NCBI GenBank assembly: GCA_038400315.1
Contig: CP151667.1
Coordinates: 1,623,174-1,687,173, forward strand
Direction of reading: 5' to 3'
Source of the DNA: Isosphaeraceae bacterium EP7
GTDB taxonomy: Bacteria; Planctomycetota; Planctomycetia; Isosphaerales; Isosphaeraceae
Length of the DNA: 64,000 nucleotides
Shown here: positions 56,433 through 59,857 of the stretch, piece by piece
Numbering within the stretch: position 1 is the first letter of the stretch
Layout: each line of letters begins with the position of its first letter
Position numbers and translations under genes: made by a program
The notes under the pieces: generated by a model
What the model was told of the DNA's origin: nothing
Database searches by the model: none
What the model saw: the letters and a program-made list of their open reading frames with translations, nothing else

Positions 56433-56741
56433 TCAATTCTTGCTGAAATCCAGCGTGCGGCTCAGGTCGCGGCCAAGCGGGTCGTTCAGATATTTCTTGT
56501 GGCAGCAGGCGCAGAGGTCGAAGCGGAAGGCCTTGTTCACTGGGGTGGCAAGCTCGTCGGAGCTCAGGTTCTCGTCCTGCCGCAGCAGGGCGGAGACCGC
56601 TTCCATGGGGTCGGCGTCGAGGTCTTCTTCGGTGATCGAAGTCGGGTCGAAGCCGGGGAAGGCCTCGATCCGAACGACGTAACGAGGCTGGCCGCAGGCG
56701 GTCAAGTCCGTGCCGCAGAGATCGCACGAGATGTGGATCAT
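56433..56741 (-). CDS. Small zinc-ribbon-like protein
   Basis: The 102-residue protein starts at ATG 56741. It has two Cys pairs, CDLCGTDL near the N-terminus and CACCHKKYL near the C-terminus, the layout of a zinc ribbon. The middle is acidic (TSITEEDLDADPMEAV). No named family. Its ATG overlaps the stop of the YfhO gene by 4 nt, so it is translated with it, though a functional link is unproven. Confidence 0.78.
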   Translation of the reverse strand: MIHISCDLCGTDLTACGQPRYVVRIEAFPGFDPTSITEEDLDADPMEAVSALLRQDENLSSDELATPVNKAFRFDLCACCHKKYLNDPLGRDLSRTLDFSKN

Positions 56742-59155
56742 TGGCGTGGAGTCCCTCGGTGGTAATCCGGTCCAGGTTGCCGACGGGTAGGCCGGTCCAA
56801 TTCTAACCCGACGAGCCGAGCCCTCCAAGGCGATTGGTGGCCTCGACGTCGAAAAAGGACGAGATTTAGGCGTCCCCACGCCACCAGTCCACTGATGAAC
56901 AGTATGGAGGTGGCGGAGGCAAGCAGCCCCATGCGCACCTCGGCCGGCTCATAGCTCAGGTCGATCCGGTGGCTCCCCGCCGGCACGTCGACAGCCAGGA
57001 ACGGCCCTTCCGACGACGGCTCGGCGGCCGGCCCGTCGTCAACCCTGACGACCCAGCCTGGGCATGCGATCATCCTCACGACCAGCCGGCCCGCCCGGTC
57101 GGACCGGGACCGACAGACCACCCGCCCGCCGTCGACTTCGATCTCGAGCGTCCCGCCCGGCTCGACCGTGGCGAGCGGCATCCCATCCACGGCGGCGATC
57201 CAGGTCTGTCCCACTCGTTCGACGGCGCCGAACAGCCCGGCGGGCGGCTCGGTGGCGCCGACGAGCGCCATGACGCCGGCACCACGCAGCCGATCGAGGC
57301 CTCGATACGCCGTGCGCCAGGTCACGTCGCGGCGGCTGCTCCTCATCCTCGGGTCGGGCTCATAAATCGGCTCGAACCAGTCGAGGGCGGCGGTCAGCTC
57401 GATCGAGTCATAGCAGCGGGCGTCGGCGATGCCATAACGCATCAACGAATTCGGCGGCCACTCCGCGCCGATGCCGACCACCCGGCTTCCCGTTCCCAGG
57501 TCCTTCAGGAAGTCGACCACCGCACCGCCCGGCCGATATTGGACGGCATTGATTGATGGGTTCAGCCCGACGACGAACACGAGCAGGTCTGCCGCGACGA
57601 GTCCGCACAGCCCGGCGCGGCCGGCATTCGCGCCGATCCGCCCTCGTCGCATCAGCCCGATCAGGATCAGCAGAACAAGCCCCTGCGCCGCGATCCAGCC
57701 GTAATACCGGGGAACGAACCAGAGCGTCGAATCCACCTGCCGGCCGGCACGTTCGAGATAGGCGGTCAGGTCGGCGCCTTCGGCCTCGGCGGCGGCGGCC
57801 CGATAGTTGGCCTCGGCGCGAGTGCGGAGCTGGGGCTCGAAGCGGGGCAAGGCAACGGCCACCATGATCGATCCGACGGCAATCAACGCCCACATCCAGC
57901 GCAATCGACCGAGCAAACGCATCCCGACATGAGCGCCCAACGAATCCAGGCCAATCCCTCCCAGCAGCGGCAGCGCGAACGCCAGCCAGACGCTCAGTCT
58001 CCGGTTGTCGGCCACCCCCAGCACCGGCAGGGCCCTCAGTAAGTTGTCAACCGGCGGGATGCGGAACGCGGCCAGTGCGCCGACCGCCGCCAGCGCGACC
58101 AGGAACCGCACGCGCGGATTCCGACGGCGGGCCGCCCAGGCGAGCGGGGCCAGGCAGACGAGCGTCGCCAGCCCCGCATATCCGCCCGCCGATTCGTTGA
58201 TGTTATGAACCCCAAGCGCCCTGGCCAGGTTCGGCTGCCCACGCCGCTGGCTCCCATACGCATAAGGGATTGCCGTGCAGACCGCGTCGAGCAGCCGGGG
58301 CGTCGCCAGGCTCAACGGCGAGCCCCATTCCTGCCTGCGATCGGCCAGGATCGGGCTTCGGGTCAGATAGACGCCCAGCGGCACGATCTGCACCGCCGCC
58401 AGCCCGATTCCGAGTGCGATGCCCGCCGACCAGGCCGGCCATGCCCGTCGGGCCCGGCGGCTGGTCCATCTCCAGGCGGCATAGAGGCCGGCGGCGAGCA
58501 GGGCGTGCGCGGCGGTCTGGACCTGCCCTCCGAACAGGATCAGCGAGGTGACGACGGCCAAGCCGGCCGTTCGTCGGGCGCCGGGCCGAGCCAGCACTCG
58601 GTCGGTGGCCAGGATCAGCCAGGGGATCCAGACGGCGACCGACGCGGCGGGGTAGAGGAGCCAGAGGCTGATGAACCCCGTGAACGGGTAGACCAAACCA
58701 GCAAACCATCGGCCCCACACCTTCAGGCCCCAGCGGCGTCCGAGCAGGAACATCCCCAGTCCGGCGACCCAGAGCCTGGCGGCGGCCATCGGCGCATGGG
58801 CGTCGGGCAGGGTGCCGAGATAGGCGATGAGGTGGAACGGGTCGAAGATGGCGCTCTGACCGTTGGCCAGGTGCGGGGCGCCGCAGCCGATCCAGGTGTT
58901 CCAGAGCGGAAGCCGACCCTGCCTGATCTGCCGGCGGCTTTCTTCAAGCCAGGGCTCGAACTGGAGGGCCGGATCGGTCAGCAGCCGATTGGCCGGCTCG
59001 AAGCGTTGGGCGTTCTCGCCTCCCAGGCTGGCGGTGGTCAGCAAGACATCGGACGGGCTGAGCACCCCGTCGCCGAAGAGGCAAGGGGCGAAGAGGGCGC
59101 AGAGGATGAGGAGCAAGGTTGCGCCAAAGGCGGCGGTTTCGCGTCGATGGCTCAT
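56738..59155 (-). CDS. YfhO-family polytopic membrane protein
   Basis: The ~805-residue protein starts at ATG 59155 with GGAGG upstream; the longer frame to 59371 crosses an inverted repeat and is rejected. It has about 12 transmembrane helices with a GT-C glycosyltransferase-like plan: a first helix, an extracytoplasmic loop with NTWIGCGAPHLANGQSAIFDP, many hydrophobic helices, and a periplasmic C-terminal beta domain ending with one more helix (LLASATSILFISGLVAW). YfhO proteins are linked to glycosylation of lipoteichoic acid or surface polymers in other bacteria; donor and acceptor here are unknown. Confidence 0.87.
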   Translation of the reverse strand: MSHRRETAAFGATLLLILCALFAPCLFGDGVLSPSDVLLTTASLGGENAQRFEPANRLLTDPALQFEPWLEESRRQIRQGRLPLWNTWIGCGAPHLANGQSAIFDPFHLIAYLGTLPDAHAPMAAARLWVAGLGMFLLGRRWGLKVWGRWFAGLVYPFTGFISLWLLYPAASVAVWIPWLILATDRVLARPGARRTAGLAVVTSLILFGGQVQTAAHALLAAGLYAAWRWTSRRARRAWPAWSAGIALGIGLAAVQIVPLGVYLTRSPILADRRQEWGSPLSLATPRLLDAVCTAIPYAYGSQRRGQPNLARALGVHNINESAGGYAGLATLVCLAPLAWAARRRNPRVRFLVALAAVGALAAFRIPPVDNLLRALPVLGVADNRRLSVWLAFALPLLGGIGLDSLGAHVGMRLLGRLRWMWALIAVGSIMVAVALPRFEPQLRTRAEANYRAAAAEAEGADLTAYLERAGRQVDSTLWFVPRYYGWIAAQGLVLLILIGLMRRGRIGANAGRAGLCGLVAADLLVFVVGLNPSINAVQYRPGGAVVDFLKDLGTGSRVVGIGAEWPPNSLMRYGIADARCYDSIELTAALDWFEPIYEPDPRMRSSRRDVTWRTAYRGLDRLRGAGVMALVGATEPPAGLFGAVERVGQTWIAAVDGMPLATVEPGGTLEIEVDGGRVVCRSRSDRAGRLVVRMIACPGWVVRVDDGPAAEPSSEGPFLAVDVPAGSHRIDLSYEPAEVRMGLLASATSILFISGLVAWGRLNLVLFRRRGHQSPWRARLVGLELDRPTRRQPGPDYHRGTPRQ

Positions 59156-59258
59156 CGGCCTGAAACCTCCGAATCCCCGGGTGATCGATGGCTGGTCGGA
59201 TGCGCCGGGTTCGTTTCGTCGTGAAAACCTGGGACCCGAATCGATGTTGCTCCACGGA

Positions 59259-59350
59259 TGCCATGCCCTCGCGCCGCGTGAGCATGAAGCGGGGCGGCCT
59301 CGCCCAGGCTGCCCGACCGGCGTATGCTCACGCGGCGCGAGGGCATGGCA
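59259..59350. repeat. 27-bp perfect inverted repeat (REP/REPIN-like)
   Basis: Arm 1 (59259-59285) and arm 2 (59324-59350) are exact reverse complements over 27 bp, beginning TGCCATGCCCTCGCGCC. The 38-bp centre is itself GC-rich. It lies in the 330-bp gap 59156-59485, which holds no gene. No target duplication or transposase is visible. Paired palindromic units of this size resemble REP doublets or a small non-autonomous element. Confidence 0.85.
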
Positions 59351-59485
59351 CACGGAAACGGCCCAGCACACGGGGATGGCCCGCGATGGGATCGTTTGCT
59401 CGCGTTCACGTCAGACCTGGCGATTCGATGAGGGACCATGCAGTCTCGTTTCGTCGGATCCATCACTGGGTCATTCAGAAGAGCG

Positions 59486-59857
59486 TTAAAGGTCGAGCAT
59501 TCGTTTGAACAAGACCATGAGTGCGGACAGCGTGAAGACTCCCGCGGCGATCCGATAAGGGCGAGTCCGGCCGGCGGCCTTGAACTTGCGCGGGTCGAGC
59601 TTGCTGGTGCGGTTGGCCAGGACGAAGAAGGTGACGGCCGCGATCGTGAGGAGGCCGCAGAGGCGCCACTCGGCGACGGCGGGGCCCTCGGTGCCGAAGA
59701 CGAAGTCGGCGGGGACCTGCAGGGCTCTCCCCGTCGAGCCGATCAGGATGGTGGTCAGTCCTTCCTGCATGTGGGACATCATGACCAGCGTGAACAGGCC
59801 GGCGCCTCCCAGGGAACCGGCCAGGACGGCGGCGATCAGGCTGCCGGATTTCGACAT
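59486..59857 (-). CDS. Small membrane protein with three to four helices
   Basis: The 123-residue protein starts at ATG 59857 behind GGAGGGG. Hydrophobic helices are LIAAVLAGSLGGAGLFTLVMM (~7-27), CGLLTIAAVTFFVLA (~67-81) and YRIAAGVFTLSALMVLF (~101-117), with a shorter polar-flanked segment between. No family recognised. Unlinked to the neighbours by spacing. Confidence 0.72.
   Translation of the reverse strand: MSKSGSLIAAVLAGSLGGAGLFTLVMMSHMQEGLTTILIGSTGRALQVPADFVFGTEGPAVAEWRLCGLLTIAAVTFFVLANRTSKLDPRKFKAAGRTRPYRIAAGVFTLSALMVLFKRMLDL

Follow-up and report, generated by a model that had tools for sequence, protein, structure and literature searches.

The 64-kb window (the whole stretch of DNA analysed) contains at 59259-59350 a perfect inverted repeat with 27-nt arms, 100% complementary, around a 38-nt centre, and the question raised by this locus is what kind of element it is and which enzyme, if any, it belongs to. 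A first-pass annotation had described perfect 27-bp arms with a 38-bp centre, exactly as found here, and had suggested a REP doublet or a tiny MITE. The results presented below show that the element is very probably an orphan REP doublet, REPIN-like in form, made up of two inverted RAYT-type REP units with a short centre.

Inverted repeat and genomic surroundings

A census of perfect inverted repeats in the 64-kb window (arms of at least 13 nt, spacer of at most 150) showed that this repeat is the longest, and the only other one had arms of 13 nt. The longest perfect inverted repeat in 40 windows simulated with an order-1 Markov model was 15 nt, by which a chance origin was ruled out. Folding of 59250-59360 gave z = -8.83 as RNA and z = -9.15 as DNA, and in either analysis none of the 200 shuffles reached this stability.

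The features of the locus are listed in Table 1. Gene starts around the doublet were picked by eye from Shine-Dalgarno-like sites; the YfhO-like gene was scanned against Pfam as 56738-59146, and the small minus-strand ORF, scanned as 59486-59800, had no Pfam match. The YfhO-like gene starts at 59155, with the doublet 103 bp upstream of it, in agreement with the earlier placement. That placement had given the distance to plus-strand stops, and is corrected here by the minus-strand ORF, whose stop at 59486 is 135 bp away with the doublet downstream of it. A longer ORF frame crosses the doublet from a GTG at 59371, and this start was judged spurious.

Table 1. Coordinates of the doublet, its parts and the neighbouring genes in the window
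Feature	Position	Strand	Basis or remark
YfhO-like membrane protein gene	56738..59155	-	PF09586, 31.1 bits against a cut-off of 28.5
Intergenic gap holding the doublet, between two minus-strand genes	59156..59485	.	starts by eye
Left REP unit; foot ATGC (differs from GTGC at one base); stem of 11 bp, mismatched at T.T and C.A; loop GCC	59258..59286	+	sequence, alignment to relatives
Left perfect 27-nt arm	59259..59285	+	sequence
Centre between the perfect arms, 38 nt	59286..59323	.	sequence
Right REP unit, in inverted orientation; unaltered GTGC foot, stem and loop as in the left unit, last base changed	59323..59351	-	sequence, alignment to relatives
Right perfect 27-nt arm	59324..59350	-	sequence
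Small ORF, no known family	59486..59857	-	stop at 59486

The location between two co-directional genes and the very stable predicted RNA hairpin are what would be expected of a cis-acting RNA hairpin, acting as an attenuator or 3'-end stabiliser for the gene ending at 59486 or as a leader hairpin of the YfhO-like gene, and such effects are reported for REPs in the part of PMC6006769 considered here. However, no T run was found and terminator prediction made no terminator-like call at the doublet, so that it does not have the form of an intrinsic terminator. The Rfam search likewise returned no family at its cut-off for the doublet, and its five matches below the gathering score (mir-2545 twice, mir-592, mir-995 and nadA) were taken as chance matches to a long hairpin. 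An RNA role may moreover be a side effect of a REP doublet and not a separate origin, and as an explanation of the element it is unlikely.

Structure of the REP units

Each arm together with the next base forms an imperfect palindrome of the form foot-CATGC[T/C]CTCGC-NNN-GCGTGAGCATG, and the element is therefore composed of two inverted REP units. The window units read foot-CATGCCCTCGC-GCC-GCGTGAGCAT[G/A], with T.T and C.A mismatches in an 11-bp stem and a 3-nt loop. The short imperfect palindrome of a REP (11-bp stem, 3-nt loop) is present in the consensus units, which fold strongly (z of -3.22 and -3.79), and the window units are degraded versions of it, folding singly at chance level (z of -0.66 and 0.05). 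Neither of the window feet, ATGC and GTGC, is the canonical REP guide GT[AG]G. The left foot being ATGC instead of GTGC and the chance-level folding of the single units count against the REP-doublet reading.

In the alignment, both arms depart from the consensus alike, with CCC for CTC and with the loop GCC. From the comparison of sequences, these shared departures suggest that the arms arose recently from one source or that one has been corrected by the other, and over 27 sites the identity of the arms is weak evidence of age. They also look as if one arm had been copied from the other, as would happen if replication had converted a single REP unit to a perfect palindrome, through template switching or through correction of the palindrome; the doublet would then be a product of replication, and no RAYT would have copied it as a REPIN. 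Against such a replication product, the bases just outside the arms, foot included, differ between the two sides.

Copies in the host genome

The search of the host genome (G000; 7.2 Mb, 99.89% complete) at up to 3 mismatches revealed four distinct units, which are the two of the window doublet, a single unit at C1:1058354 and a decayed single unit at C1:215025. Five rows were obtained, one of them a second reading of the same unit, and the reversed control pattern gave 0 matches in the host genome. The genus was sampled by one genome. Rows of the type GGTGCCATGC...GCATG in the same genome (n = 6) were also considered; one of them corresponds to the single unit, here at C1:1058351, and the rest (e.g. 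C1:1490572 and C1:6476438) were set aside as other palindromes or chance.

The many intergenic copies that had been anticipated were thus not found, and the high copy number of REPs is absent from the host (4 units, against 23 in the metagenome-assembled genome G045 described below). Four units are far below typical REP families, and this counts against the REP-doublet reading. The outcome named beforehand as fatal to that reading, a single copy in the genome with none in relatives, did not occur either, with four units in the host and copies in relatives. The window doublet has the REPIN arrangement of two inverted REPs and a spacer in one hairpin; the same doublet at several sites, as in REPINs, was not seen, the host having one doublet, and for this reason the element is described as REPIN-like and not filed as a REPIN.

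The same unit beside a RAYT in another planctomycete

The strict unit pattern was run over a genome contig collection (described as covering 84,980 species, the host's own records possibly excluded) and gave 11 exact matches in 9 stretches, all in Planctomycetota bacterium USDE_maxbin.044 (G045). At up to 3 mismatches this genome gave 38 rows, corresponding to 23 distinct units. Most of these are not inverted doublets, which is a further point against the REP-doublet reading. The foot was GTGC in 19 units, GTGG in 2 and GTGT in 2, the T.T mismatch was present in 22 of the 23, and two units carried a compensated CCC/GGG change in the stem. Five units (L118, L119, L122, L123 and L124) shared longer common flanks, including CCCCTCTCCCCC...GGGGTGAGGGC, like a composite mosaic repeat.

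Six Y1_Tnp matches were obtained in G045, and one of these is flanked by window-type units. The flanked gene is a 202-aa ORF at L108:5618-6226; a single unit (5552) lies upstream of it, and three units in inverted orientation follow downstream (6247, 6284 and 6321; 37-bp spacing). The product of this ORF scores 89 bits (cut-off 80) against NCBIfam NF047646, REP-associated tyrosine transposase (RAYT). The association of the unit with a RAYT gene is therefore observed in G045 and not in the host.

The REP-doublet reading is borne out by these results, the arms being REP-like units that flank a RAYT in G045, with related inverted doublets in two genomes of the family (G040 and G003). An origin as a MITE, or as the leftover end of some unrelated DNA transposon, would account for the size and the inverted arms, and is highly improbable here because each arm is palindromic and matches a RAYT-flanking REP. 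The wording "tiny MITE" can be kept loosely, a REPIN being a miniature non-autonomous element.

RAYT genes of the host

A RAYT-type (Y1) transposase had been predicted elsewhere in the genome, and two RAYT copies are indeed present, at C1:1489362- and C1:5739072+ (NF047646 at 186 and 179.8 bits), but both carry a different REP. They are bounded by inverted AGTAGGGTCCGCTGTGCGGACC units, whose foot is the canonical GTAG and whose palindrome is another one, and for this reason the host RAYT was rejected as the cognate enzyme and is unlikely, as far as flanking sequences indicate, to serve the window doublet. The host also had 0 matches to the G045-type (cognate) RAYT at E 1e-5. The host RAYT cassette occurs twice (L036 and L037) as a 662-bp stretch, 641/662 identical, with inverted GTAG-type bounds and unrelated flanks. 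A nearly symmetric palindrome, GGTGCCATGCTCGTGC/GCACGAGCATGGC (L066, C1:1490572-1490601), lies about 850 bp from one host RAYT copy.

In the proposed mechanism, the single-stranded doublet would fold into a long hairpin, and a RAYT would recognise the bulged hairpin together with the tetranucleotide at its foot, nick the doublet and rejoin it. With the cognate RAYT clade absent from the host at the sensitivity used and a resident RAYT that has GTAG-type REPs, the doublet would be an orphan, and on these two grounds this copy is probably immobile at present. It was presumably mobile in the past, with loss or transfer to account for the present state. Gene loss is suspected for REPs without tnpAREP in the portion of PMC6006769 available.

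Doublets and RAYT clades across the family

Units at up to 2 mismatches were found in 3 of the 45 family genomes (G000, G003 and G040), in a search at order level that covered these same 45 genomes. A count of 11/45 was rejected as overstated, the rows of G029 (22) and of several others being different palindromes that are let through at 2-3 mismatches. An abundant palindrome of another kind, GCCATGCCCACGC...GTGGGCATG, is carried by the G029 loci L046, L052, L056, L060 and L063 and accounts for 22 rows in that genome.

G040 has an inverted doublet of a nearly window-type unit, with 37-nt perfect arms, a 16-nt centre and the foot GTGG. Its nearest RAYT (L149) carries other REPs, so that this doublet too is without a matching RAYT there. 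Next to this doublet lies a second inverted repeat (L049:1386-1479; 38-nt arms, 89% complementary), so that two REP types may be clustered here. In G003 an asymmetric element of two units, its centre conserved in part, occurs three times. This corresponds to the REPIN arrangement, and the G003 units differ from the window unit (CACGC, AGAGTG). These two genomes bear in opposite directions on the origin by replication, since the perfect arms of G040 extend beyond the unit into the flanks, as such a process would produce, whereas the three G003 copies with their partly shared centre show that copied doublets exist in the family. This origin is regarded as conceivable and rather doubtful.

Relatives of the G045-type RAYT were found in 21 of the 45 family genomes (E 1e-5), and the G045 protein (L144) showed 58% identity to that of G029 and 54% to that of G008. 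Around several of the related RAYTs in the family lie different palindromes that share the GGGTG[CG] foot (for example L146-L151). The GTGC foot goes with CATGTCCACGC or CATGGCCACGC in G029, with CATGCTTCCGCC in G008 and with CACGGGTTC in G038, G040 and G030, while the GTGG foot goes with CCCGGGTTCC in G041 and CTGGGGTCTC in G012. The automated REP-pair scan detected inverted flanking units at 12/68 loci. Not detected by it were the host pair (7-bp stem) and the pairs of L150 and L151, the latter two being read by eye; L152 and L160 are regarded as doubtful. A PDB search gave no match.

The protein tree took 30/38 rows, with the cognate L144 dropped by the length filter and placed by identity instead. 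The RAYTs of G029 and G008 grouped together (94/90), as did those of G038, G040, G030 and G041 (95/91). Taken with the flanking palindromes, these groupings indicate that a change of RAYT clade tends to go with a change of palindrome, which would fit the expected RAYT-REP pairing. The relation of foot to tree is not strict, as G041 (GTGG) falls among GTGC rows.

Comparison with known systems

The orphan doublet is of an ordinary kind; its guide and the lack of its enzyme make it slightly unusual. What is slightly new is the GTGC guide at the REP foot (19/23 units of the G045 genome), against the published GT[AG]G (PMC6006769, PMC8266576, both as excerpted); atypical REPs are also reported in the excerpts of PMC6006769. 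The passages at hand from PMC3116915, PMC3733652, PMC6006769, PMC8266576, PMC8049555 and PMC2817692 include a report that the stem bulge is required in E. coli, and no GTGC-guide family was met in them, though one may be in print.

It is tentatively proposed, as somewhat less probable than its contrary, that the natural guide of a planctomycete RAYT/REP lineage is GTGC in place of GT[AG]G and that in other genera the doublets of this lineage outlast the RAYT or persist without it. According to the part of PMC8266576 considered, a GTAC mutant guide abolished cleavage by the Stenotrophomonas enzyme and moved the cleavage site of the Marinomonas enzyme. If the proposal is true, the guide rule of the Marinomonas RAYT (same source) would predict cleavage at another dinucleotide, GC or GA, through cross-pairing with G3C4 or T2C4, and with such a natural guide variant the way in which the guide determines the cleavage site could be tested. 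An anonymous repeat thereby gains a known class and a tie to a named enzyme family, and offers a natural case, its guide lying outside the published GT[AG]G, in which the RAYT clade can be compared with the palindrome and the guide of the REP.

As far as the consulted sections of the sources extend, three systems are comparable. REPINs, defined as inverted REP doublets (Bertels and Rainey 2011, PMC3116915), resemble the window doublet in their two inverted REPs, short and less conserved centre, single long hairpin and extragenic position, but they form large populations, against one doublet in the host, where the cognate RAYT was not found. The REPs of the REPtron/TnpAREP system (PMC6006769, PMC8266576) likewise have a guide-like tetranucleotide at the 5' foot and a mismatch in the hairpin stem, and the G045 RAYT has inverted flanking units as in that system, in which the guide is GT[AG]G and not the GTGC of most G045 units. 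The GTAG-tagged REP superfamily (PMC3733652), which has also been recorded in Planctomycetes, shares the short palindrome tagged at one end and the often opposite orientation of units; it differs from the window doublet in the tag, and it is the host's own RAYT that has flanking units of the GTAG type.
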